A stretch of DNA of 64,000 nt from Mangrovibacillus cuniculi (GCF_015482585.1 NZ_CP049742.1:1849277-1913276), one strand, 5' to 3'; counted from the stretch's first letter, positions 1,174 through 52,165 are shown. Notes: generated by a model not told the origin, from the letters alone. A program made the numbers and translations.

Positions 1174-1239
1174 GAGACTCATCCAGTACAAACCACATCA
1201 TGTGAATGCCCTTGTGTTGTACCTAATTACAACAAAAAA
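1174..1239 (-). repeat. Terminator-associated repeat (copy A, most diverged)
   Basis: One of seven related copies of a roughly 70-bp element. It begins at the T-tract of the coaE terminator and extends downstream of it. Recognisable parts are GAGACTCATC, the inner hairpin CACAT-C-ATGTG and the end hairpin TTGT/ACAAC, followed by six A on the plus strand. It is the least conserved copy. Confidence 0.6.
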
Positions 1240-1283
1240 GCTGCATCGTGTAGTGGCTTTCGCTCATACAACGTGCAGCTTTA
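1236..1283 (-). terminator. Intrinsic terminator of coaE
   Basis: On the minus strand the arms AAAGCTGCA and TGCAGCTTT enclose about 28 bases and are followed by a T-run. It lies about 20 bases after the coaE stop and directly abuts repeat copy A. Confidence 0.7.
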
Positions 1284-1304
1284 ACTTAAATGACAAGACT
1301 GAAC

Positions 1305-1895
1305 TTAGTACCTTAAGTTGCTTAAGTATTTATCTAATTGAATAGATAAATCTTCCTTACTTCCTGAATTATCTATCGTCACATTTGCCAATTTCTTTTT
1401 CTCATTAATTGGCATTTGAGATGCAATTCTACTTAGCGCTTCTTCTTGAGAATAGCCATTTCTTCGCATCAATCTCTCTAGCTGTATCTCCTTTGGAACA
1501 TAAATTAATAACGTTTGATCTACAATAGAAGTTAATTTACTTTCAAATAGTAATGGTATATCTAAAAAAACTATTTGGTTTCCCTCTTTTAGGTATTCAT
1601 CTGCTTGAAAGAGCATTTCTCTTCTAATAGCTGGGTGCATAATGGAGTTAAGAGTAAGCCTTGCCTCTTCATTTTGAAACACTATAGATCCTAATTTCTC
1701 TCTATTCAAACTACCATCTTCATGAAGCATCCCTTGGCCAAAATGCTCTGCAATTTGGGTTAACGTTGGCTTGTTAGGCTCTACAATTTCTTTTGCAATT
1801 TTATCAGCATCTACCACAGGGTACCCTTGATCCTCTAAATAATTAGACGCAGTAGACTTACCAGAAGCAATTCCACCAGTAATACCTATAATCAT
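1305..1895 (-). CDS. coaE: Dephospho-CoA kinase
   Basis: Phosphorylates the ribose 3'-OH of dephospho-CoA, the last step of coenzyme A synthesis, in the cytosol. The 196-residue product has the usual family length and begins with the P-loop GITGGIASGKST; DADKIAKE and the lid-region FLDIPLLFES motif follow in the expected order. SD AAAGGAG lies upstream of the ATG. It follows ytaF by 19 bases and is the last gene of a mutM-ytaF-coaE cluster, ending in its own terminator. This is the same neighbourhood as ytaG in B. subtilis. Confidence 0.95.
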   Translation of the reverse strand: MIIGITGGIASGKSTASNYLEDQGYPVVDADKIAKEIVEPNKPTLTQIAEHFGQGMLHEDGSLNREKLGSIVFQNEEARLTLNSIMHPAIRREMLFQADEYLKEGNQIVFLDIPLLFESKLTSIVDQTLLIYVPKEIQLERLMRRNGYSQEEALSRIASQMPINEKKKLANVTIDNSGSKEDLSIQLDKYLSNLRY

Positions 1896-1914
1896 TCGCG
1901 TACTCCTTTATCTC

Positions 1915-2544
1915 TTATAACTTTAAAATTCCTATCACTATCAGTATCACACCTGGGAGAAAGGAAAGTCTTTGTAACCATGATATGTGTGAAAACCATT
2001 TCCCTAGTTTCAGTCCGCTGGCTAGGAAGATAAAACACATACATCCCACTAATGTGGATAGCATTAAAGGAGAGACACCCAACAGTGCGGCACCAATACC
2101 TGCTCCAAACGCATCCAATGAAAGGGCCAATCCCAGCATTACTGCTTCAATTCCTGTAATTGTTCCACTTTTATCAAAATCAGCTTCCGTTGGTCTTTTT
2201 AAAATTTGAATTACTAATCCGATAGACTTTAGTTCTAATTTTACAATCACTTTTTCATGAGGTAACTTTTCTTCCGTTAGTTTCTCAGGTCTAAAAAATT
2301 GATATAATACCCAAGCCCCAAGTAATACGAGGATTACCCCTCCTAAAGTTTCCCCTATAGTAGGGTCGAAAAATTGACTCAACCATCTTCCTAAAAGCAT
2401 AGCAACTATTAATGTTATCCCAGAAAACAAACCAATAATCGCTATCGACTTTATCGGTAACTTCATTCCCCTTAACCCATACGTAAAGCCCGCACTAAAG
2501 CTATCTAAGCTTACTGCAAAGGCTAAAATTAATAGAACCGCCAA
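1915..2544 (-). CDS. ytaF: Sporulation-associated membrane protein YtaF (MntP-like)
   Basis: A 209-residue polytopic membrane protein with an internal duplication: FAVSLDSFSAGFTYGL near the N-terminus and LALSLDAFGAGIGAAL in the second half each carry a membrane-embedded Asp, as in the MntP manganese-export family. About six membrane helices are apparent, with a charged loop in the middle. The start is TTG, preceded by AAGGGG. YtaF is known in Bacillus as a sporulation-expressed membrane protein; the transported ion is not shown by this sequence. It sits between mutM and coaE, as in B. subtilis. Confidence 0.85.
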   Translation of the reverse strand: MAVLLILAFAVSLDSFSAGFTYGLRGMKLPIKSIAIIGLFSGITLIVAMLLGRWLSQFFDPTIGETLGGVILVLLGAWVLYQFFRPEKLTEEKLPHEKVIVKLELKSIGLVIQILKRPTEADFDKSGTITGIEAVMLGLALSLDAFGAGIGAALLGVSPLMLSTLVGCMCFIFLASGLKLGKWFSHISWLQRLSFLPGVILIVIGILKL

Positions 2545-2620
2545 AACTTACAACCCCTTCCAAGCACGTCATGTTAAACCAGTATATGATGACGGCCTGG
2601 GCAGGTGTTCCGCGTCCTTT

Positions 2621-3448
2621 TTAAGGCACGATTTGGCAAGAGAGACATATGTGTGTGCCTCGACCCGCAACTTTTATTTTCTCTATTGGTTTTCCACAAA
2701 CTAAACAAGGTTCTCCTGTTCTTCCATAGACATATAATCTTTTTTGGAAGGTTCCGATTTTCCCTTGAGAATTAACATATGTTCGTATCGTGCTACCTCC
2801 AAGTTCTACCGCTTCTTGAAGGGTATCGATAATTTCTTGATAAAGTAAGGCAATTTCTTTTTCTGTTAAACTTTTTGCTTCTCGTAACGGATGAATCTTT
2901 GCACGGAATAATGCTTCATCCACATAAATATTTCCTAATCCTACTACTGCTTTTTGATCCAATAAAACTGCTTTAATAGACCTAGACGTTTTTTCAAATG
3001 CTTGTTGTAGAACTTCTGGTTGAAACAATGCAGAAAAAGGCTCAGGACCTAAATCTACTAAAGAGGAATGATGTAATGCCATTCCTTTCTTTACAAGGTG
3101 CATGGTACCAAACTTCCTTACATCTCGATACCTTAGTTCCGTTCCATCTGTAAAAGTGAACACAACGTGTGTGTGTGGTTCTTCTTTATCTCCTTGGTCA
3201 TGAACGGAAAACTTCCCCTCCATTCTAAGGTGGGAGATAAGTGTCCAATTGGATAATTCAAATAATAGAAATTTCCCTCTTCTTTCTATTGTTTCAATTA
3301 CTTCTCCATCTAGTTGTAAACGAAATAGGTCTAACTCAGGCTCCTTGACAATTTTCGGCCACCTAACGTCAACAGATTGAACTTTCTTCCCTTGCACTAA
3401 ATGAAGAAGTGTACGTCTGGCTGTCTCGACTTCTGGTAATTCTGGCAA
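2621..3448 (-). CDS. mutM: Formamidopyrimidine-DNA glycosylase (Fpg/MutM)
   Basis: Bifunctional DNA glycosylase/AP lyase that removes 8-oxoguanine and formamidopyrimidines. The 275-residue product starts PELPEVET, giving the catalytic N-terminal Pro and Glu after Met removal. The C-terminal zinc finger is CLVCGKP...HICLSCQ and the helix-two-turn-helix region VGLGNIYVDEALF is intact. The start codon is TTG with SD AAAGGAG. It follows polA by 15 bases, so the two are probably co-transcribed, as in other Bacillaceae. Confidence 0.96.
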   Translation of the reverse strand: MPELPEVETARRTLLHLVQGKKVQSVDVRWPKIVKEPELDLFRLQLDGEVIETIERRGKFLLFELSNWTLISHLRMEGKFSVHDQGDKEEPHTHVVFTFTDGTELRYRDVRKFGTMHLVKKGMALHHSSLVDLGPEPFSALFQPEVLQQAFEKTSRSIKAVLLDQKAVVGLGNIYVDEALFRAKIHPLREAKSLTEKEIALLYQEIIDTLQEAVELGGSTIRTYVNSQGKIGTFQKRLYVYGRTGEPCLVCGKPIEKIKVAGRGTHICLSCQIVP

Positions 3449-3463
3449 AATATTTGCTCCTTT

Positions 3464-6094
3464 CTACTTTGCTTCGTACCAAGAAGGACCAAAGCTGACA
3501 TCTGCTTTTAATGGTACAGATAGTTCTGCTGCTCGCTCCATCACTGTTGGTACAAGCTCCTTCATTAGTTCTAGTTCTTCTTCTGGAACTTCAAATACCA
3601 ATTCATCGTGTACTTGTAGTAGCATCTTAGATGTTAATCCTTGTTCATCTAATTCATTTTGCATATCAATCATTGCCTTTTTAATAATATCTGCTGCGCT
3701 TCCTTGAATTGGAGTATTCATAGCCGTTCTTTCAGCAAAACTCTTTAAATTAAAGTTTCTGCTAGTGATATCTGGCAAGTACCTTCTTCTGTGAAGTAAT
3801 GTTGAAACGTATCCTTGTTTCTTCGCATCCTTCACAATTTCATCCATATACTCTTTTACACCTGGGAAACTGTTTAGATATTTCTCGATAAACGTTCCTG
3901 CTTCTTTACGCGAAATAGATAAACTTTGTGATAGCCCGTAATCGCTAATTCCATAAACAATACCAAAATTAACAGCTTTCGCGTGTCTTCTCATTAACGA
4001 GGTAACTTCCTCTTCTTTGACACCAAAGACATCCATTGCGGTCTTCGTATGAACATCCCGATCTTCTAAGAAAGCTTCTTTGAGCCCCTCATCATCAGCA
4101 ATATGCGCTAACACTCTAAGCTCAATTTGAGAGTAATCAGCAGCAAGAATGGTCCATCCTTCTGTAGAAGGCACAAAGGCTTGTCTAATTTTACGGGCTT
4201 CTTCTAACCTAATAGGGATGTTTTGTAAGTTAGGGTCAATAGAACTTAAACGACCTGTTTGTGTCAGCGCTTGATTATATCTGGTATGAATTCTAGAAGT
4301 GTCGTCGGTTATAACTTTTGTTAATCCTTCTACATAAGTCGATTGTAGTTTAGATAGCTGTCGATAATGAAGAATCTCTTTTACAATTTCATGTTCTGAT
4401 TCTAATTTCTCTAAAACATCTGCTGAAGTCGAATATCCAGTTTTCGTTTTTTTCAAAACAGGCAATTCTAATTTCTCAAAAAGAATTACACCTAATTGTT
4501 TTGGAGAATTGATGTTGAAAGTATCACCAGCTAGGCTATAGATTTTCTCCTCGATATCTTTTAAACGCGATAACAATTCTGTCCCCATTTGATTTAATCG
4601 TTCTTTATCCACCTTTACACCATAAGATTCCATCGCACCTAGTACAAGCGCAAGTGGCAGCTCTAATTCTTCAAGCAGTTCCATTTGCTCATTTTTAACT
4701 AGCTCATCGGTACATTCACCTTTTACAGCAAATACACCATACACTTTTCGTCCTAGATGATCTGCTAACACATCTTCTGCAGGTACTGTCCATTTAGCAC
4801 CTTTTCCGTATACCTGCTCATCTGAGGAGATATTAGTAAAGCCATGTCTACTAACGACTCCGGCAAATTCAGCCGCTGCTTCTGAAGGATTTAGAATATA
4901 AGAAGCTAAAAATAAATCAAATGTAATACCTTTTACTTCACAACCAAATCGTTTCCCAACAACAAACGTTTTCTTTGCGTCGTATACCCATTTCTCTTTG
5001 GAATCGTCTGTGAACCATGTGGTAAAGGCTTCTGATTCAAATGCCTTATCTCCACCTACAAAAAATGTACCTTTTTCATTATGTAAGGTAACGCCTAATA
5101 TTTCTTGACGATGATAATTTTCTCCCGCTATTTCAATGTGAAGTGCACTTGGAGATGCTAAGTGCTCTTGTTCAAAATTCGAAAGTATTGTTACCTCTAT
5201 GTTTGTTAACTCTTGTGTATCTTCTTCTACTTCCACGTTCATTTTTTCTAGAATAGTGTTAAATTCAAGTTCTTTTAACAGCGGTATTAACTTTTCGTCA
5301 TTCGCTCCTATATAACGAAGGTCTTCTACTTTCACTTCTATTGGTGCATTTCTTTCAATAGTTACTAATTGTTTACTAAGAATCGCAAGTTCTTTATTTG
5401 TTTCTAGTTTTTCTTTTAATTTTTTCCCACTGACATCTTCTAGATGGTCGTATATCTTTTCGATAGTGCCGAACTGAGCCAATAATTTTATGGCTGTTTT
5501 TTCTCCTACTCCAGGTACGCCAGGTATATTATCGGAAGAATCACCCATTAAACCTTTCATATCAATAATCTGATCAGCAGTTAATCCGTACTTCTCTTGA
5601 ATATGACTTGGTGTATACGGCTCAATATCTGTAATCCCTTTTCTCGTGATTCCAACTGTTGTTTTTTCCGAGCTTAATTGTGTTAAATCTTTATCTCCGG
5701 AGATTACCTTTACTTCATAGTCTGCTGCTTCCGCTTCTTTTGAAAGTGTCCCAATAATATCATCAGCCTCATAGTTTGGGAGTTCGTATTGTTTAATATC
5801 GTAAGCATTTAATAATTCACGGATCATCGGAAATTGTTCTGATAATTCAGGTGGAGTTTTTTGGCGGCCACCTTTATATTCTTTGTACGATTCATGTCTA
5901 AATGTGGTTTTACCCGCGTCAAATGCTACAAGCATATGTGTAGGTTTTTCTTCTTCAATAATTTTGTTTAGCATGGTAGTAAAACCATAAACAGCATTCG
6001 TGTAAATACCTTTTTCATTATTTAATAAAGGTAGTGCAAAGAAAGCACGATACGCGATGGAATTCCCGTCAATCAACACTAACTTCTTCGTCAT
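3464..6094 (-). CDS. polA: DNA polymerase I
   Basis: Gap-filling and Okazaki-fragment processing polymerase, 876 residues from the ATG at 6094. That start is chosen because GGAGG lies 7 bases before it; an upstream in-frame ATG at 6112 overlaps the SD. The N-terminal 5'-3' exonuclease domain (LVLIDGN, YEADDIIGT, GLMGDSSDNIPGV) is complete. The middle 3'-5' exonuclease domain has lost the DxE metal site (it reads LHIEIAGEN), as in other Bacillus Pol I, so proofreading is probably absent. Polymerase motifs A (DYSQIELRVLAHI), B (RRHAKAVNFGIVYG) and C (QVHDELVFEVP) are intact. First gene of a polA-mutM-ytaF-coaE run. Confidence 0.97.
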   Translation of the reverse strand: MTKKLVLIDGNSIAYRAFFALPLLNNEKGIYTNAVYGFTTMLNKIIEEEKPTHMLVAFDAGKTTFRHESYKEYKGGRQKTPPELSEQFPMIRELLNAYDIKQYELPNYEADDIIGTLSKEAEAADYEVKVISGDKDLTQLSSEKTTVGITRKGITDIEPYTPSHIQEKYGLTADQIIDMKGLMGDSSDNIPGVPGVGEKTAIKLLAQFGTIEKIYDHLEDVSGKKLKEKLETNKELAILSKQLVTIERNAPIEVKVEDLRYIGANDEKLIPLLKELEFNTILEKMNVEVEEDTQELTNIEVTILSNFEQEHLASPSALHIEIAGENYHRQEILGVTLHNEKGTFFVGGDKAFESEAFTTWFTDDSKEKWVYDAKKTFVVGKRFGCEVKGITFDLFLASYILNPSEAAAEFAGVVSRHGFTNISSDEQVYGKGAKWTVPAEDVLADHLGRKVYGVFAVKGECTDELVKNEQMELLEELELPLALVLGAMESYGVKVDKERLNQMGTELLSRLKDIEEKIYSLAGDTFNINSPKQLGVILFEKLELPVLKKTKTGYSTSADVLEKLESEHEIVKEILHYRQLSKLQSTYVEGLTKVITDDTSRIHTRYNQALTQTGRLSSIDPNLQNIPIRLEEARKIRQAFVPSTEGWTILAADYSQIELRVLAHIADDEGLKEAFLEDRDVHTKTAMDVFGVKEEEVTSLMRRHAKAVNFGIVYGISDYGLSQSLSISRKEAGTFIEKYLNSFPGVKEYMDEIVKDAKKQGYVSTLLHRRRYLPDITSRNFNLKSFAERTAMNTPIQGSAADIIKKAMIDMQNELDEQGLTSKMLLQVHDELVFEVPEEELELMKELVPTVMERAAELSVPLKADVSFGPSWYEAK

Positions 6095-6194
6095 ATAAAT
6101 CCTCCATTGCACGCGTTAATAGAACGCTTGTTTTGGTTTAATAGTAACATTTTTTATATGTAGAAACAAAAAGATGCTTGGGCAAATAGCAAAA

Positions 6195-6384
6195 TGATTG
6201 CAATGGGATTTTCGCTACAGGGGGACGCTTTCCGCGGGGTGGGCATCTGAGCCTCCTCGTCGCGGTCGCTGAGTAACGCTCTTAGCTCCTGTGGGGTCTC
6301 AGCTACCCACCTATTCCGCAGGAGTCGCCCCCTTACGCTCCAATCCCTAAATATTATTTAATTTAAGCATTATTTCTGCAATAT
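6195..6384 (+). repeat. GC-rich palindromic intergenic repeat (copy 1 of 3)
   Basis: A core of about 143 bases (6205-6347) runs from GGGATTTTCGCT to CAATCCC and is an imperfect palindrome, flanked by conserved AT-rich tails ending in CTGCAATAT. It is much more GC-rich than its surroundings. Related copies are at 29429-29610 and, inverted, 35992-36179. Repeats of this general type are common in Bacillaceae intergenic DNA. With the terminator at 6435 it fills the gap between polA and hflC. Confidence 0.8.
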
Positions 6385-6434
6385 CTCTGTTTCGCAATAC
6401 ATTATTATTAAAATACTGGCCAAAAAAAAAAAAG

Positions 6435-6474
6435 AAAACAGATGAACATTTATTAAATAAATGCATCTGTTTTT
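6435..6474 (-). terminator. Terminator after hflC
   Basis: Arms AAAACAGATG and CATCTGTTTT enclose an AT-rich inner stem, with a long T-run on the minus strand (the A-run at 6422-6433). It lies just past the hflC stop. Confidence 0.75.
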
Positions 6475-6499
6475 CTTTAAATTTACAATCAATATCCTC

Positions 6500-7429
6500 T
6501 TAGTTATTCCCTTGAAGATACTTAGCAAATGATGAAGTTGATGGAATCATGATGACCGTTTCGTCATTAATTGTCTTTTTGTAAGATTCTAACGTTCTAT
6601 ATAAGGAATAGAAATTTGGATCTTTTGAGAATGATTGATTATAGATGGACGCTGCTTCTGCTTCTCCTTCTGCTCGAATAACAGATGCATCTGCTTTCGC
6701 TTGTGCTAACAGCTCCGTTACTTCTCGATCTGTTTCTGCAATGATTCTATTCTTCGATGCATCTCCCTTAGAAAGATATTCTTGCGCTTTTGACTCACGT
6801 TCTGAAATCATACGCGTGTACACCGCCTGCTCATTCTCTGATGGAAGATCTGTACGTTTCATACGCACATCCAAAACTGTAATACCAATTGAATTTTTTT
6901 GAAGTAATTCATTTACTTTCAGTGTCACTTGTTCATTCAAACTTCCGCGAGATGATTTTTCATCATTCACAATTTCTTTATACTCTAGGCTTCCAAGTTC
7001 CGAGCGAACAACAGAATAAATATACTCTTCCATTTTTGACTCTGCTCCAGTAACGGAACGAACATTCGTAATCATTAGTTTAGGGTCTGTAATTTGCCAA
7101 ACAGAATAGTTATCAATAATGATTCGTTTTTTATCTTTTGTGTTTATCTCCTCTTCTGTTACGTCGTATGTCATTTTTACTTTTGGCAACGTTGTCGTAC
7201 TTTGAATAAAAGGTATCTTTACCTTTAACCCAGGTTGGTCATCTATACGTACAACCTCTCCAAACTGACGTACAACTTTATATTCACCTTCTTTTACTAT
7301 ATAAACGTTTGTGAGAAAGATTAGCATTATAGCAATTACGGAAGTGAAGAAGATGGATAACTTTACCAATTGTCTATTATTAATCTTTTTATTTTTTGTG
7401 TTCAAATTTACCACCTGTTCGTTACTCAT
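6500..7429 (-). CDS. hflC: SPFH-domain protease modulator HflC
   Basis: A 309-residue membrane-anchored prohibitin-like protein. One membrane helix (about residues 22-46) is followed by an SPFH/band-7 domain (YIVKEGEYKVVRQFGEV) and a long charged coiled coil (about 200-265, rich in A/E/K/R). In other bacteria HflC and HflK form a ring complex that regulates the FtsH protease. The start ATG overlaps the hflK stop (ATGA), showing translational coupling. It is the distal gene of the pair and ends at a terminator. B. subtilis has no HflKC here, so this pair is an addition to the conserved block. Confidence 0.88.
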   Translation of the reverse strand: MSNEQVVNLNTKNKKINNRQLVKLSIFFTSVIAIMLIFLTNVYIVKEGEYKVVRQFGEVVRIDDQPGLKVKIPFIQSTTTLPKVKMTYDVTEEEINTKDKKRIIIDNYSVWQITDPKLMITNVRSVTGAESKMEEYIYSVVRSELGSLEYKEIVNDEKSSRGSLNEQVTLKVNELLQKNSIGITVLDVRMKRTDLPSENEQAVYTRMISERESKAQEYLSKGDASKNRIIAETDREVTELLAQAKADASVIRAEGEAEAASIYNQSFSKDPNFYSLYRTLESYKKTINDETVIMIPSTSSFAKYLQGNN

Positions 7430-8385
7430 TGGCCTTCACCTCCAGATTGATTTTCTTTAGGAGCTTGTTTTTCAATGGGACGAATAGGCAAATAACTCAT
7501 GGTATTTTGGTTATCATCCATAATATATAACTCTGCATTCGGCAATACTTGCTCCAATGTTTCAAGCACCAAACGCTCTTGTGTAATTTCAGGATTTAAA
7601 CGATACTGTTCATAAAGTTCATTAAAAACGGCAACATCCCCACGTGCAGCTTGGATACGAGCAGTTTTTTCTCCTTGCGCCTTAGAGATAATTGCGTCTT
7701 TTTCCCCTTCTGCTTCGTTCTTACGTTTATTCTGGTACTTTTGTGCTTCGTTAATCTTCGTATTCATCGTTTCTCGTGCATCTGTCACATCCGTAAATGC
7801 TTTTCTGACCTCAGCACTCGGCAGTTCTACATCTTGCAACTTTACAGTAATCACAGAGATACCTATACCATACTCATCAATTAGCTCCGACAGCAGACTA
7901 TATACTTCTTGTTCAATTTCTGCTTTCCCTGATGTTAGTGCATCATCAATTAAGGAGCTACCAATAATGCTTCGAAGGGAAGCTGATGTTGCATCGTAAA
8001 GAATTTTATCAGGATCTTCTGCTTGAAATAAATATGATTCTGGATCAGTAATTTTCCATTGAACCACCATATCTGCTAATACGATATATTCATCACCAGT
8101 TATCATCTTTGTTTCACTAGGAAACGATTCCACTTCACCATCTTTTTGTTTATAACCAAACTGTAAACTAAATGTTTCTTTAGAGACCTTTTCAACAGAT
8201 TGGATTGGCCATGGTAGTTTAAAATGTAAACCAGATTCTTGATGCGTTTCATCAACTTTACCAAACGTTAAAATAACAGCTTGATCGGATTCATCTACCG
8301 TGTACCAAGAAGTAAAAATAATAATACCTAAAATGACTGCTCCGAACAGAAATCCTGTTCCTTGCATAAGTTGTTTTGCGGACAT
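7426..8385 (-). CDS. hflK: SPFH-domain protease modulator HflK
   Basis: Partner of HflC in the FtsH-regulating complex. Starting at the ATG at 8385, which has SD AAGGAGGAG 7 bases upstream, it has 319 residues; an in-frame ATG at 8442 lacks an SD. A single membrane helix (about 9-29) is followed by the SPFH domain (WYTVDESDQAVILTFGKV) and a coiled coil (about 195-250) containing the family signature KRKNEAEGEKDAIISKAQGE. The C-terminal tail is Gly/Glu-rich. It overlaps hflC by 4 bases. Confidence 0.88.
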   Translation of the reverse strand: MSAKQLMQGTGFLFGAVILGIIIFTSWYTVDESDQAVILTFGKVDETHQESGLHFKLPWPIQSVEKVSKETFSLQFGYKQKDGEVESFPSETKMITGDEYIVLADMVVQWKITDPESYLFQAEDPDKILYDATSASLRSIIGSSLIDDALTSGKAEIEQEVYSLLSELIDEYGIGISVITVKLQDVELPSAEVRKAFTDVTDARETMNTKINEAQKYQNKRKNEAEGEKDAIISKAQGEKTARIQAARGDVAVFNELYEQYRLNPEITQERLVLETLEQVLPNAELYIMDDNQNTMSYLPIRPIEKQAPKENQSGGEGQ

Positions 8386-8545
8386 GTTGTACTCCTCCTT
8401 TTCCTCGTATATATTTACGGAATGAGAAGTAAATAGTTTCATTTTTCTTATGATTAAGGATATTTATTGGGTGTATTTTTTACTATGATATTTAGGACTA
8501 CAATCTAGCACACATTTAATTGTGGAAATATAAATAGGATAATAA

Positions 8546-8617
8546 GGATACTCCGTTAAGTGCAAGCCACATCACGTGGCTAACATGGAGTTGTTACTGT
8601 TCGCGTAACAGAAAAAA
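8546..8617 (-). repeat. Terminator-associated repeat (copy B)
   Basis: Contains the outer stem ACTCCGT/ATGGAGT (one G-T pair), the inner hairpin GCCAC-ATCAC-GTGGC and the end hairpin TGTTAC/GTAACA. It starts at the T-tract of the phoR terminator. Confidence 0.85.
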
Positions 8618-8642
8618 GCGAGAACGGGGTCAGTTCTCGCTT
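8616..8642 (-). terminator. Intrinsic terminator of phoPR
   Basis: Perfect arms AAGCGAGAAC/GTTCTCGCTT with a T-run on the minus strand. It lies about 120 bases after the phoR stop and abuts repeat copy B. The 8386-8765 gap otherwise shows nothing definite. Confidence 0.85.
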
Positions 8643-8765
8643 CTTGTTGCTCCTTGGATGAAGGGGTTTTCATAGTTATAGTATCAATAGATTATTAACT
8701 CATCATAAACCTGTTGTAAATGTTTTGTAAATTAAGGCAATCGTTAACTATATTTCTCCGTTCCT

Positions 8766-11333: not shown

Positions 11334-11411
11334 CTTTTTTTCGTTAAATAATTCACATGCAATTCATCAATTAGATTTCCGTCCTGAATATCGGCGCCAT
11401 TATTAACTTAT

Positions 11412-11480
11412 GGAGATTCCTCTAAGTACAAGTCACATAATGTGGCAACAATGAATTGTTACTTATCACGTAGCAAAAAA
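11412..11480 (-). repeat. Terminator-associated repeat (copy C)
   Basis: A diverged copy: it starts GGAGATTCCTCTAAGTACA, has the inner hairpin in altered form and the end hairpin TTGTTAC/GTAGCAA (one G-T pair). It begins at the T-tract of the terminator of the MaoC-like gene. Confidence 0.75.
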
Positions 11481-11514
11481 GCGCATGAATTCAATTACCT
11501 GAATCCACTGCGCT
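11479..11514 (-). terminator. Terminator of MaoC-like gene
   Basis: On the minus strand AGCGCA...TGCGCT with the inner pairing ATTC/GAAT, then six T. It lies about 27 bases after the stop at 11542. Confidence 0.7.
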
Positions 11515-17281: not shown

Positions 17282-17287
17282 TAGTAT

Positions 17288-17355
17288 GGGACTCTTCTAA
17301 GAGTAAGCCACACCACGTGGCTAACGATGAGTTGTTACTGGTAACGCCACAAAAA
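17288..17355 (-). repeat. Terminator-associated repeat (copy D)
   Basis: Outer stem ACTCTTC/GATGAGT (one mismatch), inner hairpin GCCAC-ACCAC-GTGGC, and an end hairpin altered to GTTAC-TG-GTAAC. It starts at the T-tract of the fxsA terminator and ends 7 bases from the convergent ytvI stop. Confidence 0.82.
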
Positions 17356-17381
17356 GGTGGTGACGCAAATGCGTCACCACC
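17356..17381 (-). terminator. Terminator overlapping the end of fxsA
   Basis: Near-perfect arms GGTGGTGACGC/GCGTCACCACC with T-run TTTTTG on the minus strand. The 5' arm contains the last codons and the TGA stop of fxsA. Confidence 0.85.
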
Positions 17382-17775
17382 TTTTATTTCCATTTATAAT
17401 AATCGTGTTTCCATTTTGCATTCTATTTCTAAAAAAAGTGTATATTGGCTTCTTTAATGTTTTCCTTGTTACTGGTAACAATAAATAAAACCCTATGAAG
17501 TCTGTGATAAATCCAGGAGTTAATAGAAGTACTCCACCTACTAATACACATAAACCATCTACTATATAGTCAGCAGGTTGTTGTCCAGAAGCAATTGATT
17601 GTTGCAAGGCTATCCATGTTTTTTTACCTTGTTGTTTGGCCAAGTAAGCACCCAATACTCCGGTAGCAATAATTAGTAAAATGGTATTCATAACGCCAAT
17701 GTTTGTCCCCGCTAGTAATAACACCCAAATTTCCAATGCAGGAATAATAATTAAAAATGGTAGTAAATATCTCAT
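17374..17775 (-). CDS. fxsA: FxsA family membrane protein
   Basis: A 133-residue protein with three to four membrane helices (about 3-19, 25-43, 70-98) matching the FxsA family: LLPFLIIIPALEIWVLLLAG at the N-terminus and the VLVGGVLLLTPGFITDFIGF signature. FxsA overexpression lets E. coli exclude phage T7 from some F-plasmid strains; its native role is unknown. SD AAAGGAG lies upstream. The last codons and stop lie inside the terminator hairpin. Same neighbourhood as ytzA/fxsA near pyk in B. subtilis. Confidence 0.9.
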   Translation of the reverse strand: MRYLLPFLIIIPALEIWVLLLAGTNIGVMNTILLIIATGVLGAYLAKQQGKKTWIALQQSIASGQQPADYIVDGLCVLVGGVLLLTPGFITDFIGFYLLLPVTRKTLKKPIYTFFRNRMQNGNTIIINGNKRW

Positions 17776-29380: not shown

Positions 29381-29428
29381 CTAATCTAAAATTAACCAAA
29401 CAAAGAAGAGGAAGTTGCAAAAGACAAA

Positions 29429-29610
29429 AGTGACTGCACAGGGATTTCCGCTGCAGGGGGACGCTTTCCACGGGGCGGGTTGCTGAGCCTCCTCGTCGCG
29501 ATAGTTCGCGCTCCTGTGGGGTCTCAGTAACCCACCTTTCCCGTAGGAGTCGCCCCCTTCCGCTTCAATCCCAAAAATATATTGTATAAAAGCATTAATC
29601 CTGCAATATT
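29429..29610 (+). repeat. GC-rich palindromic intergenic repeat (copy 2 of 3)
   Basis: Core 29441-29572, from GGGATTTCCGCT to CAATCCC, with tails GTGACTGCA and CTGCAATATT shared with the other copies. It lies in the 373-base gap between the convergent ytrI and nrnA genes. Confidence 0.82.
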
Positions 29611-35991: not shown

Positions 35992-36179
35992 ATATTTCTG
36001 CAGATATAACGTTAAGTCTTAAAAATTTATTTAGGGATTGGAGCGGAAGGGGGGCGACTCCGGCGGGATAAAAGCGGTAAGCCGAGACCCCACAGGAGCG
36101 CGTTCTTTAGCGACGAGGAGGCTCGGCACCGCCCCGCGGAACGCGTCCCCCCTGGAGCGGAAATCCCCTTGCAGTCACT
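35992..36179 (-). repeat. GC-rich palindromic intergenic repeat (copy 3 of 3, inverted)
   Basis: Core 36034-36168, running in the opposite direction to copies 1 and 2: GGGATTGGAGCGGAAGG on the left and GGAGCGGAAATCCCC on the right, with tails matching the other copies. It fills the gap between the convergent peptidase and ald genes. Confidence 0.82.
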
Positions 36180-40256: not shown

Positions 40257-40438
40257 TTGAATCCTCCTAACATATCGTCTCCCTTCTCTAATTCGATATA
40301 AATGAGAGAAACCCTTTTTAAATGGGTGATTGGACGCATATATGTTTTGGTTTGGTGTTGGAATAATGGCAACTTTGGTGGATTAAAGGACCCTTGGCCT
40401 CTTTTTCTGCTTTTGCACTATTTGATTACGTTAGGTAA

Positions 40439-40506
40439 GGAGACTCATCTAATTACAAGCCACGTCACGTGGCTAACGATGAGTTGTTACGTCACGTAAC
40501 AAAAAA
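40439..40506 (-). repeat. Terminator-associated repeat (copy E)
   Basis: A clean copy: outer stem ACTCATC/GATGAGT, inner hairpin GCCAC-GTCAC-GTGGC, end hairpin TTGTTAC/GTAACAA. It begins at the T-tract of the ackA terminator. Confidence 0.88.
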
Positions 40507-40527
40507 CTGCCCAGAAAATCTAGGCAG
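40507..40527 (-). terminator. Terminator of ackA
   Basis: On the minus strand CTGCCTAGA/TCTGGGCAG (one G-T pair) followed by six T, about 10 bases after the ackA stop. Confidence 0.8.
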
Positions 40528-43086: not shown

Positions 43087-43105
43087 TCGAACAAAGAAGT
43101 GTTAA

Positions 43106-43693: not shown

Positions 43694-43725
43694 AAAAAGG
43701 CTGCCGGTATGTCGACAACCTTTTT
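43694..43725 (-). terminator. Terminator of ytfJ
   Basis: Arms AAAAAGG.TG.CG/CG.CA.CCTTTTT around tatgt with U-rich ends, about 30 bases after the ytfJ stop. Confidence 0.65.
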
Positions 43726-43753
43726 GCATAACACATCTTATGTCTATGTATCC

Positions 43754-44236: not shown

Positions 44237-44252
44237 TTTTACATCTCCATTT

Positions 44253-44954: not shown

Positions 44955-45010
44955 ATCATTACCCCCATACCCTATAGTCCCATTCAGTATGGTCAAATAA
45001 TAAAAAAATA

Positions 45011-45031
45011 AAACCTGTTTTCACAGGTTTT
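45011..45031 (-). terminator. Terminator of yteJ
   Basis: Arms AAACCTG/CAGGTTT with inner loop TTTTCA, flanked by a T-rich tract on the minus strand. Confidence 0.7.
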
Positions 45032-45035
45032 ATTT

Positions 45036-45620: not shown

Positions 45621-45633
45621 ATTATCTCCCTCC

Positions 45634-46638
45634 TTACTCTGCATATAGGTACATTAATCGAGGAGCATTAGGATTTGAGAAAGTTTGAATTGCTTCTACT
45701 AACCCTAAATCGTCCCCTATCATTTTCTTTGCACCCATTTGGAATAGTGAGGCGAATGAAGTACCTTTGGAAAGACTCACTACTTGGGCATCTCCTAAGT
45801 TATGATCCTTTTTGAGTGCTTGGATTGCATCTTCTTCGTAACCAAACTCATCAATTAAATTTAACTCTTTCGCTTGATAGCCATCATAAATTCGTCCATC
45901 TGCAATTCGTCTAACATCTTGTTCTGACATACCGCGCCCTTCTGAAATAACCTTTACAAATCCATCATAAGAACGGTCTACCATCCCTTGAAGGATGTTG
46001 CGTTCTTCATCCGTCATTTCACGATAAGAACTCATGATATCTTTATAAGGTCCACTCTTAATCGTAACAAAATCTACTCCATACTTTTCAGCTAACCCTT
46101 CAAAATTAATGCTTTGCATAATAACTCCTAGCGATCCAGTTAGTGTTTCTTGACTAGCAAAAATTTTGTCAGCAGGAGCTGCTATGTAATAACCGCCTGA
46201 CGCTGCCATAGCACCCATAGAGATGTATACTGGCTTACCAGCTTTTTGAACCTCTTGAATCTTTTTGTGGATTTGAGCGGATTCCATTACTCCTCCACCA
46301 GGAGTATTTACGGATATTACAGCGCCTTTAAAATCATCAGATTCAGCAATATGCTCCAGCTGTTCGATAAATTGATCATGATTATACGAAACTGATTCAA
46401 AAAGTTGAGAAGGGGCATTTGTATCTTGGATAACACCGTCTACAGTTAGAAGAGCGATAGACTTTGTTGGAGTACCTTCCTCAATAACAACTTGTTCCCA
46501 ATCACCACTGTTCATTAATAAATCTTCAAACGATTGACTTTGTTGACTAAAAACACTTTGACTGACTGCATTTGTAACAAGAGACCCTACTAATAAAATT
46601 CCTGCGATTACTAAGGCTCCCCATCTTTTCTTATTCAT
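45634..46638 (-). CDS. sppA: Signal peptide peptidase SppA
   Basis: A 334-residue membrane-bound serine peptidase that degrades signal peptides and other membrane-side substrates. An N-terminal membrane anchor (about 7-25) precedes the ClpP-like domain with catalytic Ser in MGAMAASGGYYIA and catalytic Lys in VDFVTIKSGPYKD, plus VNTPGGGVMESA. SD AAGGAGG precedes the ATG. Coded with yteJ, as in B. subtilis, where SppA takes part in lantibiotic resistance. Confidence 0.94.
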   Translation of the reverse strand: MNKKRWGALVIAGILLVGSLVTNAVSQSVFSQQSQSFEDLLMNSGDWEQVVIEEGTPTKSIALLTVDGVIQDTNAPSQLFESVSYNHDQFIEQLEHIAESDDFKGAVISVNTPGGGVMESAQIHKKIQEVQKAGKPVYISMGAMAASGGYYIAAPADKIFASQETLTGSLGVIMQSINFEGLAEKYGVDFVTIKSGPYKDIMSSYREMTDEERNILQGMVDRSYDGFVKVISEGRGMSEQDVRRIADGRIYDGYQAKELNLIDEFGYEEDAIQALKKDHNLGDAQVVSLSKGTSFASLFQMGAKKMIGDDLGLVEAIQTFSNPNAPRLMYLYAE

Positions 46639-46772
46639 GTATATCTCCTCCTTATCTTACCTTCAATAGATACGGTTAAAAGTTTGTTTCGTTTCACTTA
46701 TTTGGTAAACTAATGATACAGAGGTAAGTTTATCAAATGTGTTAGTCAAAAGAAAGAATGAGGTGGATACAA

Positions 46773-47570
46773 ATGGAAAGAAGAAATATGTATTTTTATT
46801 ACCGACCTGATCCTTCAAAGACAGAAAAACTAGAGACATTGTTTGAACTTGCAAAACGTTATGATTTTAACGTGGTCACTGATCCAACTATCGCCAATAT
46901 TATTATTAGCGTTGGAGACGATGGCACATTCTTAGAAGCAGTACGTCGGACTGGCTTTAAACAAGATAATTTATACGTAGGTATCTCCACAACTGGTAGC
47001 CTCTCCATTTACTGTGACTTCTTATTAGAAGATACTTCTACAATGATTGAAGCGATGACAACAAAACAAATTGAAGTAAGACGTTATCCTTTATTAGAAG
47101 CTACAGTTGACAAAGAAGGTACGTTTCTTTGTTTAAATGAATTTACTATTCGTTCTGGTATTATTAAAACGTTTGTTATTGACGTTTTTATTGATAACTT
47201 CCACTTTGAAACGTTCCGTGGTGATGGTATGGTTGTTTCCACACCGACAGGCTCTACTGCATACTCTAAGTCATTAAATGGAGCTGTGGTTGATCCGACG
47301 CTACCTTGTATTCAAGTAAGTGAATTAGCATCATTAAATACAAATAGATACAGGACACTTGGATCTTCGTTCTTACTTGGAGAAAATAGAAAATTAACCT
47401 TAAAAGTAGTACAAGATGGTAATGATCACCCTACAATGGGGCTAGACAACGATGCAATGAGCGTTAAAAATGTACACTCTATTGATCTAAAAGTAAGTGA
47501 GCAGAAGATTAAAACAGTAAAATTAAAAGATAACTCTTTCTGGCATAAAGTGAAGAGATCCTTTTTATAA
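46773..47570 (+). CDS. nadK2: NAD kinase 2 (NadK2/PpnKB)
   Basis: Phosphorylates NAD to NADP. From the ATG at 46773 (SD GAGGTG 7 bases upstream) the protein has 265 residues; an earlier ATG at 46758 has no SD. The nucleotide-binding motif reads VGDDGTFLEAVRRTG instead of the common GGDGT; a similar GDD form occurs in some Bacillus NadK2, from memory. NEFTIRSG and SPTGSTAYSKS-like FRGDGMVVSTPTGSTAY follow. Divergent from sppA, convergent with rarD. Confidence 0.93.
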   Translation: MERRNMYFYYRPDPSKTEKLETLFELAKRYDFNVVTDPTIANIIISVGDDGTFLEAVRRTGFKQDNLYVGISTTGSLSIYCDFLLEDTSTMIEAMTTKQIEVRRYPLLEATVDKEGTFLCLNEFTIRSGIIKTFVIDVFIDNFHFETFRGDGMVVSTPTGSTAYSKSLNGAVVDPTLPCIQVSELASLNTNRYRTLGSSFLLGENRKLTLKVVQDGNDHPTMGLDNDAMSVKNVHSIDLKVSEQKIKTVKLKDNSFWHKVKRSFL

Positions 47571-47575
47571 ACACC

Positions 47576-47606
47576 AAAAAGGTGCGTTGATGAAACGCAC
47601 CTTTTT
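47576..47606. terminator. Bidirectional terminator between nadK2 and rarD
   Basis: Perfect arms AAAAAGGTGCGTT/AACGCACCTTTTT around gatga, with T-runs on both strands. Confidence 0.92.
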
Positions 47607-48524
47607 TTATGCAGCCTGAACAGGAGTCTTTGTTTTTCTTTTAAACCATTTTGTTCTTCCCACAGTCAATACAGATAATGCTAACCAAATAAACGTAAAG
47701 GCAATAAAATGAGCCGGTGTAAACGTCTCTTTATAAACAAATATCCCTAAAATCAACATGAGCGTCGGCGCAATATACTGCAAGAATCCGATCATATATA
47801 GCGGAATTCGCTGTGCACCTTTTGTAAATAACAGCAAAGGCGTAGCGGTTACAGCACCGGCTCCCATTAATATTAATGTTGTGATTAACGTGTCAGTTCC
47901 AAAGGCACCTTGACCACTGCCAGCAAAGTAAACTAAAAATGCTAGGGCAATAGGCATTAAGGTAAGTGTTTCTAACGCCATACCAATCTCTGCATCTACT
48001 TTTACCATTTTCTTTACTAGTCCGTAAACTCCAAAAGTAATCGCTAAAGTAAATGCCACCCAAGGAAATACTCCATAGGAGAAGGTAAGAATGCTTACCC
48101 CAACAGCAGCTAGGATAAAAGATAGAATTGCCGGCTTACTAAGCTTCTCTTTCAAAATAGTTACTCCTAAAATAACACTTACTAAAGGATTAATGTAATA
48201 TCCTAGGCTCGCTTCCACCATTTGATCCGTATTCACAGCCCAAATATAGAGGAACCAATTAGACGTTACTATAATAGATGCAGCGGAAAGAGCTAGTAAT
48301 TGTTTAGGGTGAGTCTTCATTAATTTTAAGGTTTTTACAAATGTGCGATGCTTCTTCATAATAAATAATAATAAAAGCATAAACCAAAAAGACCAAAATA
48401 CACGATGCATTAAAATTTCAAATGACCCTACATGATCCACAAGCTTCCAATATATAGGAAGCGCACCCCATAAGATATAGGCGACTGCTGCAAAGACAAT
48501 ACCGGTTTGTTCTTGATTTTTCAT
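47607..48524 (-). CDS. rarD: EamA family transporter RarD
   Basis: A 305-residue membrane protein with ten helices in two EamA repeats. The start MKNQEQTGIVFAAVAYILWGALPIYWK and the motif ASIIVTSNWFLYIWAVN with LGYYINPLVSVILG are characteristic of RarD. The name comes from chloramphenicol-resistance phenotypes, but the substrate is unknown. It follows the amidohydrolase gene by 16 bases on the same strand. Its stop lies within the shared terminator region. Confidence 0.88.
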   Translation of the reverse strand: MKNQEQTGIVFAAVAYILWGALPIYWKLVDHVGSFEILMHRVFWSFWFMLLLLFIMKKHRTFVKTLKLMKTHPKQLLALSAASIIVTSNWFLYIWAVNTDQMVEASLGYYINPLVSVILGVTILKEKLSKPAILSFILAAVGVSILTFSYGVFPWVAFTLAITFGVYGLVKKMVKVDAEIGMALETLTLMPIALAFLVYFAGSGQGAFGTDTLITTLILMGAGAVTATPLLLFTKGAQRIPLYMIGFLQYIAPTLMLILGIFVYKETFTPAHFIAFTFIWLALSVLTVGRTKWFKRKTKTPVQAA

Positions 48525-48540
48525 TTTTTCTCCTCTCCCA

Positions 48541-50136
48541 TTACGGACGAGTGAATACTATATTCCCGCCAATAATAGTCTGTGTGTGTAGATTCTCTGT
48601 TAGTTGTTGTAACGGAATTTCGTCTAATCTTTCTTTAAATACGGTAAAGTCAGCAAAATAACCTTCTGCAATCATCCCCATCTCTTTTTCTCTCCCAATG
48701 GCCAAAGCAGAACCTTTTGTATAAAGAGAAATCGCTTCGTACATAGATAATTGTTCTGTAGGTACGTAAGTTATCGTTTCTCCATCCATATACACAGACC
48801 TACTAACAGCTGCTTTAATCCCTTCTAAGGGATTAATGTCTTCAATTGGTGCGTCAGAGCCTCCAGCACAAATAATACCTGCTTCTAAAAGTGATTTCCA
48901 GGCAAACCGATGTGTGTGTACTTCCTCATGAATCCTATTATGTAGATAGGAACTATCACTAGGTAGGAAAGACGGCTGAATATCTGCAATGATTGGTAAC
49001 ACTTGCATTCTTTGAATTAATTCATTGTTTAATAATGGTACATGTATTAATCGATCCAATAAATTCGGCGGACATGGGTATTTTTCTATCACCTCTAATA
49101 TATCCCCCACAGCTTGATCTCCAATGACATGAACGGCAATATTTTTCTTTTCTATCCTAGCACGCTTTACAAGATCCTCCAATACTTCTTTTGGATGAAC
49201 AGCTATGCCTTTTGTGGAAGGGGCATCTTTATAAGATGTGCTTAATAATGCAGTTCTTCCACCTAAAGATCCATCTACAAATATTTTTATTGCACCTAGT
49301 TCTAAATAAGTATTGTTTATATGGAGCACGTCTAATTCCTTCATTTTATCCACTGCCAAATGGTGCACCAATAAATGCAGTCTGAACGGAAAGTCCCCTT
49401 CTTCTACTTCTTTTATAAATGTTTGAAATGGATTTTGTGGATTCCCGTAATAAGATAAGTCTTCCGAGTGTCCACCAACTAACCCTTTAGACCAGGCATC
49501 TTTTATAGCTAATCTCGTGGCAGAAGTTAAATATTCACTTGTTTTACCAGGCATTGCTTCTAGCATTTTATCCACAGCACGATCTCTCATTACCCCAGTA
49601 ATCTCTCCATTTACCTTGTCATAACTTCCTCCCATGGGATTTTCAGACGTAGATTCAATGGATGCCATTTGTAAAGCAAGCGTATTCGCAGTAAATACAT
49701 GTCGGCATTTCCTCTTTAATACAATGGGATGCACAAGACTTAGTTTATCTAACTCCCACTTTGTTGGAATTTTTTGTCTATCATAGAATAGTTCTTCATC
49801 AAAGCCTTCTGCAATAATCCATTCTCCTGGAGGTACTTGCTGAACTTTTTCTTTTACGCATGTAATTACTTCTTGGAATGAGGATACAGTTGACAAGTTA
49901 ATAGTTAAAAGTGACTCCCCATGACCTATTAGATGCATATGACTGTCTACAAAACCAGGGTAATATACCTGACCGCTACAATCTTTTATTTCATCATATA
50001 ATTCTATTAAAGGCTCTAAATCTTTTCTATCACCAATTTTAATAATCTTATCATCCTGAATGATAATTGCATTAACTTCCTCACCTTCACTCCTCATCGT
50101 GACAAATCGTCCATTAACCCATAACTGACGCTTCAC
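48541..50136 (-). CDS. Amidohydrolase family protein (YtcJ-like)
   Basis: A 531-residue metal-dependent amidohydrolase. Metal-binding HxH in GFVDSHMHLIGHGESL, the Asp/His region SDAPIEDINPLEGI near the C-terminus, and the beta-sandwich composite domain at both ends match the YtcJ group (about 530 residues). The substrate is unknown. It lies upstream of rarD and after mbcS, as ytcJ does in B. subtilis. A simple SD precedes the ATG. Confidence 0.85.
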   Translation of the reverse strand: MKRQLWVNGRFVTMRSEGEEVNAIIIQDDKIIKIGDRKDLEPLIELYDEIKDCSGQVYYPGFVDSHMHLIGHGESLLTINLSTVSSFQEVITCVKEKVQQVPPGEWIIAEGFDEELFYDRQKIPTKWELDKLSLVHPIVLKRKCRHVFTANTLALQMASIESTSENPMGGSYDKVNGEITGVMRDRAVDKMLEAMPGKTSEYLTSATRLAIKDAWSKGLVGGHSEDLSYYGNPQNPFQTFIKEVEEGDFPFRLHLLVHHLAVDKMKELDVLHINNTYLELGAIKIFVDGSLGGRTALLSTSYKDAPSTKGIAVHPKEVLEDLVKRARIEKKNIAVHVIGDQAVGDILEVIEKYPCPPNLLDRLIHVPLLNNELIQRMQVLPIIADIQPSFLPSDSSYLHNRIHEEVHTHRFAWKSLLEAGIICAGGSDAPIEDINPLEGIKAAVSRSVYMDGETITYVPTEQLSMYEAISLYTKGSALAIGREKEMGMIAEGYFADFTVFKERLDEIPLQQLTENLHTQTIIGGNIVFTRP

Positions 50137-50169
50137 ATCTTTCCCCGCCTTACTTTAGAAATTATAAAA

Positions 50170-50240
50170 GGAGAATCATCAAAGAACGAACCACATCGTA
50201 TGGTCAACAATGTGTTGTTACTGATCACATAACAAATAAA
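50170..50240 (-). repeat. Terminator-associated repeat (copy F)
   Basis: A diverged copy with inner hairpin ACCA...TGGT (the first G-C pair of other copies replaced by A-T) and end hairpin TTGTTA/TAACAA. It starts at the T-tract of the mbcS terminator. Confidence 0.75.
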
Positions 50241-50262
50241 GACGGCTTCGTAATGAGCCGCC
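50241..50262 (-). terminator. Terminator of mbcS
   Basis: On the minus strand GGCGGCT/AGCCGTC around an eight-base loop, followed by TTTATTTG, about 26 bases after the stop. Confidence 0.7.
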
Positions 50263-50288
50263 CCTTGTTTATAGTATACTCCTATGGT

Positions 50289-51875
50289 CTATTGATTTAA
50301 AGTTTCTAGATCCCACTTTCTTAACTCTACTCTTCTAATTTTACCGGAAGTTGTTTTTGGTAACTCGCGTACAAATTCTATTTTTCTTGGATATTTGTAT
50401 GGGGCAGTTAGTTCTTTCACATGGTTTTGTAATAATGTCACTAATTCTTCCTCTGGCATTTTTTGCTTTTCCACAAGAACTACGTATGCTTTGACAATAT
50501 TACCTCGATCCGGATCCGGACTTGCTATTACCGCACATTCTTGTACTGCAGGATGTTGCGTTAACGCATCTTCTACTTCAAAAGGCCCGATAGTATACCC
50601 TGAACTAATGATAATGTCATCACTTCTTCCCTCAAACCAGAAGTATCCTTCTTCATCTTTTCTTGCTTTGTCACCAGTTAAGTAAAAGTCTCCTCGATAC
50701 TGTCTCTCTGTTCTTTCTTTATCACGAAAATACCCTTTAAATAGTGCAGGGGTAGATTTGTGAACGGCTATATGTCCGACTTCCCCAATCAGACAAGGTG
50801 TTCCATCTTCATCTACCACTTCTACCCAGTTTCCTGGTGTTGGCTTGCCCATTGCACCTGGCAGCAGGGGTGTATCTTCCATAAAACCTAATAATAGTGT
50901 ATTTTCGGTTTGACCATATCCATCTCGCACATTAACATTAAACAAACGTTTGAACAAATGGATTACTTCCATGTTAAGAGGCTCTCCAGCTGAAACGGCC
51001 GACCTTAAGTGCGGTAAGGAAAATTCACTAATTCTCTTATCTTTTGCCATTAATCGATACTCTGTAGGTGTACAACATAATACTTGGATAGCATGTTTCT
51101 TTAAAAATGCAAGATATGCATACGGATCAAATTTCCCTTCATAAAGGTATCCGGTAGCACCACTGCCAAGTACAGATAGAAAAGGTGACCATATCCATTT
51201 TTGCCACCCTGGTCCTGCAGTTGCCCATACTCTGTCTGCCTCTTGAATACCCATCCAACCACTTGCTGCTGTACGAATATGTGCGTATCCCCAACTATGT
51301 GTATGCATAACTGCCTTTGGATTTCCTGTCGTTCCTGACGTGTATGATAAGAATGCTAAATCATCCCTATTCGTTTTGGGTTGATGCCAATCTGATGATT
51401 CTTCTTCCATTAGAACGGAGATATTGTGTCCAAAACCTGAATTGGTATGACCACCTACGACACATTTTGTTAATGTATCCGGTAAATTCATTTCTTCAAA
51501 GGCTTTAGCAAATTGATCATGTACAATAATAGCTTTAGCATCGCTATGTTCGATTCTATAAAGAATATCTTTCTCTCTTAGCATTTCGGATGAAGGGATA
51601 ATAACTAACCCTAATTTCAAAGCTCCACCATACACTTCGTATGCTGTAATTCCCCTAGGAAGTAAGAGTAAAATGACGTCTCCTTTATGTAGTCCAAGCT
51701 TCGAGAAAGCGTTACCAATTTTATTTATCCTAGTACGCAATTCTCCGTATGTCCTAGTCGTTACATTACCTTCTTCGTTTTCACTGACTATTGCCAATCG
51801 ATCTTGTGGGATAGATGATTTCATCCATTCATCTGTGATGTTATATTCTTTAGGGGCAACTAACTGCGCTTGCAT
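50289..51875 (-). CDS. mbcS: Acyl-CoA synthetase MbcS
   Basis: A 528-residue AMP-forming ligase matching B. subtilis YtcI/MbcS, which makes branched-chain acyl-CoA such as methylbutyryl-CoA. ATP-binding LSYTSGTTGNPKAVMHTH, GYGQTENTLLLG, TGDKARKDEEGYFWFEGR and the C-terminal catalytic Lys in PKTTSGKIRRVELR are all present. SD AAAGGAGG lies 7 bases before the ATG. It supplies primers for branched-chain fatty acids in the relatives studied. It ends at a terminator followed by repeat copy F. Confidence 0.93.
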   Translation of the reverse strand: MQAQLVAPKEYNITDEWMKSSIPQDRLAIVSENEEGNVTTRTYGELRTRINKIGNAFSKLGLHKGDVILLLLPRGITAYEVYGGALKLGLVIIPSSEMLREKDILYRIEHSDAKAIIVHDQFAKAFEEMNLPDTLTKCVVGGHTNSGFGHNISVLMEEESSDWHQPKTNRDDLAFLSYTSGTTGNPKAVMHTHSWGYAHIRTAASGWMGIQEADRVWATAGPGWQKWIWSPFLSVLGSGATGYLYEGKFDPYAYLAFLKKHAIQVLCCTPTEYRLMAKDKRISEFSLPHLRSAVSAGEPLNMEVIHLFKRLFNVNVRDGYGQTENTLLLGFMEDTPLLPGAMGKPTPGNWVEVVDEDGTPCLIGEVGHIAVHKSTPALFKGYFRDKERTERQYRGDFYLTGDKARKDEEGYFWFEGRSDDIIISSGYTIGPFEVEDALTQHPAVQECAVIASPDPDRGNIVKAYVVLVEKQKMPEEELVTLLQNHVKELTAPYKYPRKIEFVRELPKTTSGKIRRVELRKWDLETLNQ

Positions 51876-52006
51876 GTAAAGACCTCCTTTAATATATCAT
51901 TCCTTTCTTAGATTCTTCATCGGAGGCCAAAATCCTTTTATTCACGCAAAATTAGTGAGGTGAATTTGAAACTGAATTTCATTGGGGATTTTTCCACTGT
52001 GTAGGG

Positions 52007-52069
52007 CGACTTAACCCTTTTGTCGCCGTGTCTCCTTCTCCAACATTACGACTTTCCTCATTTGTCGCC
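52007..52069. repeat. Two tandem 21-base repeats, 42-base period
   Basis: CGACTT(N)5-6TTTGTCGCC occurs at 52007-52027 and 52049-52069. The first copy also closes a GGCGAC/GTCGCC hairpin (52005-52027). They lie in the 334-base gap between mbcS and the SASP gene, about 130 bases upstream of mbcS; no clear promoter was identified there. Confidence 0.5.
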
Positions 52070-52096
52070 TCAGTTATCCGTGCTCCCTAACATAAA

Positions 52097-52165
52097 GGAG
52101 ACTCCGTTAAGTACAGGCCACATCACGTGGCTAACACGGAGTTGTTACTGGTCACGTAACAAAAA
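52097..52165 (-). repeat. Terminator-associated repeat (copy G, clearest)
   Basis: Outer stem ACTCCGT/ACGGAGT, inner hairpin GCCAC-ATCAC-GTGGC (one base differs as GGCCAC), end hairpin TTGTTAC/GTAACAA. It starts at the T-tract of the SASP terminator. Confidence 0.9.

Follow-up and report, generated by a model that had tools for sequence, protein, structure and literature searches.

A Bacillaceae-1-related hairpin element in contact with the terminators of Mangrovibacillus cuniculi, probably a mobile DNA element

Introduction

Bacillaceae-1 (Rfam RF01690), described by Weinberg et al. 2010 (PMC2864571), has been listed since 2010 as an RNA of unknown function. Its discoverers were unsure of the strand, and Gardner and Eldai proposed that CsrA binds the reverse complement, the loops of which read AGGAY (PMC4333381). 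The 3' side of an intrinsic terminator is, for its part, a known address for mobile DNA: group IIC introns use a DNA hairpin as target and integrate behind intrinsic terminators (Robart et al. 2007, as cited in PMC3898094). Among the small repeats of the pneumococcus, BOX can join T-box leaders, and SPRITE lies near gene 3' ends (PMC3049150). Here we describe an element of 71 bases that touches upon all of these. It occurs seven times in a 64,000-nt stretch of the Mangrovibacillus cuniculi chromosome (GCF_015482585.1 NZ_CP049742.1:1849277-1913276; hereafter the window), each time against the terminator of a gene.

What kind of entity is it? It is probably a relative of Bacillaceae-1, a mobile but non-autonomous piece of DNA that inserts in one orientation at the 3' edge of sites composed of a hairpin and a T-tract, chiefly intrinsic terminators.

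Contact with terminators throughout the genome

How are the copies of this element placed in the genome as a whole? To answer this, we built a covariance model, R1, from six of the window copies, leaving out the seventh (1171-1238). In the window the six score 77-100 bits, the seventh 29 bits and the next match 17.5 bits. In the 3.15-Mb genome there are 146 R1 copies, a lower bound, as the best 150 candidates were scored; with later finds (one place from the pattern of the hairpin P3, described below, and two in a tandem array) the count is at least 149. The scores grade down into fragments, and degenerate copies are common. The DNA examined comprises the stretches around the copies, in which gene calls are mechanical open reading frames (ORFs).

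By a symmetric inverted-repeat score, a strong hairpin abuts the A-run end of 114 of the 146 copies. The corresponding controls are 4.9 for shuffled sequence, 3.0 for the opposite (5') end and 7.6 for positions drawn at random within these loci. Under a less stringent folding criterion 133 of 146 qualify, compared with about 60 when shuffled, the failures being mainly degenerate or tandem copies and those within a longer composite repeat. An earlier note on the window, made from the sequence, had called for such a genome-wide covariance-model search; its outcome is that the copies are placed non-randomly, at terminators.

If contact is the rule, is orientation governed by the terminator or by the replichore? 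Copies in one replichore mostly occupy the minus strand, those in the other the plus strand (the border having been set by eye from the copy pattern). With the composite repeat set aside, 134 copies are left; the gene that follows their A-run converges upon the element in 110 cases and diverges in 20, with four unassigned; for genes no more than 80 bases away the ratio is 74:5. Even those copies that oppose their replichore still face a converging gene in 15 of 21 cases. We conclude that orientation tracks the terminator, and that genes on the opposite strand do carry the element in mirrored orientation, the test that the earlier note had proposed.

In most copies the orientation follows the gene, as first noticed in the window, but the element is antisense to that gene and lies downstream of the U-tract. 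It therefore lies outside the terminated transcript, and a role as protector of the RNA 3' end, one of four readings previously offered, is unlikely because the element stands beyond the transcript's end.

The terminators contacted are of many kinds. At least 15 belong to leaders: seven T-boxes (L012, L023, L065, L077, L079, L134 and one, sub-threshold in Rfam, beside the copy at 2630724), two thiamine pyrophosphate (L109, L113), two S-adenosylmethionine (SAM; L072, L100), two purine (L092, L105), one lysine (L075) and one manganese (L128) riboswitch. In those leaders that were followed nucleotide by nucleotide, the aptamer comes first, then the terminator, the element and the gene, the copy being interposed between the terminator and the ribosome-binding site. 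Other copies adjoin RNase P RNA (L080), two tRNA operons (L097, L136), a 5S gene (L144) and BsrF (L068). A copy is present at 7 of the 17 T-boxes of this genome and at 2 of its 5 SAM riboswitches. A rough baseline is 3 of the 25 gene terminators detected in the window (about 12%), so that most terminators have no copy.

In one of the T-box leaders (L077:1300-1570) the interval between terminator and gene holds a full copy and, in tandem, two incomplete units, each of about 72 bp.

Structure of the element and the strand test

The 71 bases are laid out as AAGGA-P1-TAAG-N-C-(P2 hairpin)-AAC-P1'-(P3 hairpin)-AAAAA. In the best window copy, on the plus strand, the helix P1 (ACTCCGT / ACGGAGT) encloses the hairpin P2, with loop ATCAC, at 52101-52142. 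It is followed at 52143-52161 by the hairpin P3 (TGTTAC / GTAACA), with TCAC in its loop, and the A-run. Folding and covariation define both, and loop counts also define P3. Pairing is kept in 94.3% of the helix cells of 113 distinct copies, and at 15 of the 19 pairs both partners vary; none of 500 shuffles is as high. Alignment to a covariance model is biased towards structure; nevertheless, controls in which the helices are slid drop to 27-49%. The loops are conserved while the stems vary: ATCAC forms the P2 loop of 89 out of 115 copies, and TCAC is present in most P3 loops.

Is either strand of this structure maintained as RNA? A strand so kept should show more G·T than A·C mismatches. The adjoining terminator stems, scored symmetrically on the gene strand, show 132 G·T to 12 A·C. 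The mismatch test is therefore able to detect RNA-level selection. In the helices of the element itself (the same 113 copies) the numbers are 48 and 42, and hence neither strand seems to be maintained as RNA. In 33 RF01690 copies from elsewhere, a small sample, the ratio is 5:9. We read the strand-neutral mismatches of the element as post-insertion decay of DNA copies, with which selection for a hairpin at the DNA level is also compatible. Set against the wobble bias of the terminators, this decay argues that the element acts as DNA in this lineage.

These results bear directly on the proposal that the element is kept by the host for termination or insulation, helping RNA polymerase to stop or blocking read-through in either direction. 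Strict contact and orientation speak for such a role, and the apparent excess at regulated terminators would suit it. But the element is situated beyond the U-tract, most terminators do without it and degenerate copies are common. Moreover, copies stand between conditional riboswitch or T-box terminators and the downstream genes that these control, and this, together with 48:42 in the element against 132:12 in the terminators, weakens the termination aid that the earlier note had considered. We regard a host-kept termination element as unlikely.

The same evidence can be put to the element as a protein-binding site, kept by the host at the DNA level for an architectural or replication-related purpose, for example, with polarity set by the replichore. 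In its favour are the TCACGT-type loops conserved in both hairpins and the overall replichore bias of the copies. However, in most of the minority copies polarity follows the terminator rather than the replichore. Retention of the loops while the stems change points instead to recognition of an extruded hairpin, and the variant is lineage-specific (see below). A binding site of this kind is, in our judgement, less probable still than a termination element.

Copies in the window

Sequence and R1 agree in placing all seven window copies on the plus strand at the places first noticed. In all seven the A-run overlaps the T-tract of the preceding minus-strand hairpin, the stems at 11410 and 1171 being imperfect. 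The names given to the neighbouring genes also hold: Pfam identifies CoaE, a PhoR-type histidine kinase, a MaoC-domain protein, FxsA, acetate kinase and an AMP-binding ligase, and the seventh gene is a SASP-like ORF of 65 aa (52210-52407).

The highest-scoring copy, downstream of the SASP gene (52095-52165; 99.8 bits), is entered by the T-tract of a terminator hairpin at 52168-52193. By the same stem analysis, contact is made by the minus-strand terminator hairpins of the phoR-like kinase gene (8609-8649; copy at 8544-8614, 92.5 bits), ackA (40507-40527; copy at 40437-40505, 90.8 bits), fxsA (17352-17385; copy at 17285-17355, 83.3 bits) and the ligase gene (50241-50262; copy at 50168-50238, 77.2 bits). 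The two imperfect stems were recognised from the sequence and partly detected by the analysis. The maoC-like gene has a terminator-like hairpin, AGCGCA...TGCGCT (11480-11514, minus strand), which adjoins the copy at 11410-11479 (82.7 bits); that of coaE, AAGCTGCA...TGCAGCTT at 1238-1281, also on the minus strand, adjoins the copy at 1171-1238. The latter is the degenerate copy left out of R1: 'CGAGACTC' replaces GGAGACTC, P1 is lost and P2 is shortened, while P3 folds.

Relation to Bacillaceae-1

The earlier note recognised no named family in the element. This must be revised, as cmscan places several copies above the Rfam cut-off for Bacillaceae-1. Against a gathering score of 35 bits, the SASP-side copy (52091-52160) scores 36.0 bits; several others also pass, and most fall below, the copy beside the phoR-like gene scoring 32.8 bits. 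The cmscan alignment and covariation show the same layout in both: AAGGA, P1, UAAG, P2 hairpin, AAC, P1' and P3 hairpin. The differences lie in the loops and at the 3' end. Both terminal loops read RUCCU in Bacillaceae-1, or RUCGU in some, but RUCAC in the element. The element also ends in CAAAAA, which Bacillaceae-1 lacks; A4 is found at the 3' end of 133 of the 146 element copies and of 2 of the 50 RF01690 copies from elsewhere. RF01690 matches occur in 82 of the 151 genomes of the order, often in many copies per genome. They lie mostly within composite repeats of greater length, at times next to 16S or within a 5S gene, and are not terminator-bound. With the loop hallmark failing and terminator contact added, we call the element a divergent Bacillaceae-1 variant, not a plain member.

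Two observations concern RF01690 itself. In other Bacillales genomes, copies lie within a 5S rRNA gene and, pointing either way, immediately before 16S rRNA (L060, L050, L052). The loops read either RUCCU or RUCGU, and some single copies have both (L031-L060, L180-L199), a possible sign of lineage-specific loop recognition.

Given this kinship, could the element be a small RNA that sequesters CsrA, as published for the reverse complement of Bacillaceae-1? The AGGAY loops of RF01690 speak for it, as does the presence of csrA twice in this genome. But the reverse-complement loops of the element read GTGAT or GTGAC and contain no GGA, strand bias is absent from its roughly 150 copies, and three genomes with RF01690 copies (G051, G052, G033) have no csrA match. 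We consider this explanation very improbable, and much the weakest of those discussed. A sense small RNA ending at a bidirectional terminator was also tried and rejected, since most of the hairpins have no T-run on their other side.

Signs of mobility and a proposed mechanism

The claim that no copy lies away from a terminator holds within the window; it does not hold in the genome, where a few copies are tandem or nested and others lie inside another repeat. Nesting occurs at three places (two in L116, one in L139), the inner copy starting directly after the P2 loop of the outer one. About 15 copies are inside the composite repeat, which has GGCGCGC...GAGCTAGACA segments, and most of these end in CAAAAG instead of CAAAAA. 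The two ends of the element are unpaired in the folds and in the covariation model, an analysis not aimed at terminal inverted repeats. We found no target-site duplication, direct repeats at the junctions being no commoner than in shuffled pairs.

A second repeat was seen in passing. It is palindromic, of about 200 bp (GGGGACGCTTTCCGCGGGG...GTCGCCCCCTT), and has three copies in the window, one of them inverted (6184-6384, 29420-29609 and 36024-36179). At two further loci, 948637 and 1021406, a part of this repeat lies next to the composite form of the element.

How far has the RUCAC variant spread? Elsewhere in GTDB its long core has no match and a shorter core has ten single matches in unrelated taxa, which we take as chance. 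As the core is not found in other GTDB genomes beyond this, its spread appears to be lineage-specific. BLAST found no match for the element in plasmids or phages; in IMG/VR the RF01690 core occurs in five contigs and the RUCAC core in none.

Because the element is indifferent to the type of terminator, decays without regard to strand, nests within itself and is lineage-specific, we infer that targeted insertion, and not retained function, is the cause of its contact with terminators. Insertion is inferred to pass through single-stranded DNA. In the mechanism that we propose, the CAAAAA end would be laid over the T-tract of the target. Both RUCAC-loop hairpins and the terminator hairpin would be recognised as single-stranded or extruded DNA, and an enzyme acting in trans would attach the element to the T-tract and leave the target unduplicated. 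The recognition of hairpins, the polarity and the absence of duplication would all be accounted for by a single-strand-hairpin mechanism like that of IS200 or RAYT enzymes. Of the four readings offered by the earlier note, the best fit is that of a mobile element with terminators as its target, in view of the genome-wide contact, the inclusion of all kinds of terminator, the nested copies and the copies inside another repeat.

Could insertion be mediated by RNA instead? The oligo(A) end of an element RNA would then anneal to the T-tract and be reverse-transcribed from a nick, in target-primed fashion like a short interspersed nuclear element. The geometry fits, with the A-run over the T-tract and no target-site duplication; the 5' part is missing from some copies (2933045, 1748647); and a target of this kind also serves a class of retroelements, the group IIC introns (PMC3898094). 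On the other hand, the genome contains no match to the reverse transcriptase family RVT_1 (PF00078), the helices lack wobble asymmetry and there is no evidence that the element is transcribed. We judge this route to be as unlikely as the termination element.

What, then, weighs against a mobile DNA element inserting at terminators? No autonomous partner was found. No filled and empty pair of sites is at hand, the genomes searched including no relative of the same genus or family; when L040 was compared with the genus of G073 in search of an empty site, the intergenic DNA was too diverged for alignment. The best R1 score near the RAYT-like gene of this genome is 11.9 bits, which is not a good copy, and at E 1e-6 a Y1 transposase match is absent from two Bacillaceae-1-rich genomes (G072, G104). 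Finally, 9 of the 22 T-box and SAM leaders have a copy, an apparent excess that is a possible hint of function; p is about 0.0006 at a baseline of 12% and 0.02 at 20%, and thus depends on a rough estimate from the window terminators.

The RAYT-like gene is the only one of Y1/RAYT type in the genome, encodes 195 aa (locus L159) and falls below the NCBIfam cut-off. As the mover of the element it was rejected, being unlinked to the copies and showing no dependence across genomes. Next to it an 85-bp unit is repeated 6.7 times and may be a repeat family of its own (L159:1234-1821 and 1920-2488). No protein family recurs beside the copies of the element; the largest cluster consists of four paralogues.

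We propose more tentatively, as something that could well prove wrong, that this is a new terminator-seeking mobile DNA element, a hairpin element rather than a group II intron, served by a lineage-specific enzyme and descended from Bacillaceae-1 through a concerted replacement of RUCCU by RUCAC in both recognition loops. If true, the Bacillaceae-1 'sRNA' of Rfam would be a family of such mobile elements. There would also be a natural form of terminator-targeted insertion that dispenses with reverse transcriptase, in which an element of 71 bp has marked 7 of 17 T-box terminators.

Comparison with known systems

A miniature inverted-repeat transposable element of a DDE transposon has a target-site duplication, which the present element lacks. 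The pneumococcal repeats BOX, RUP and SPRITE (PMC3049150) resemble it as small repeats that have spread in Firmicutes. However, BOX and RUP make target-site duplications and SPRITE is itself terminator-like, whereas the element sits beside a terminator, with no duplication seen.

REP sequences and REPtrons with their RAYT transposases (PMC3733652) resemble the element in being intergenic, palindromic, non-coding and present in high copy, and this genome has one RAYT-like gene. Yet the conserved columns of 113 copies show neither a GTAG nor a CGTC tag at the hairpin foot. The RAYT-like gene is not flanked by copies, and the element differs further in having two hairpins in each fixed 71-bp unit and in being specific to terminators.

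From group IIC introns the element is set apart by its length of 71 bp, by the lack of any Rfam ribozyme match and by a host genome without reverse transcriptase. What the two share (PMC3898094) is the target, and the analogy is of target alone: the site just after the hairpin of a terminator.

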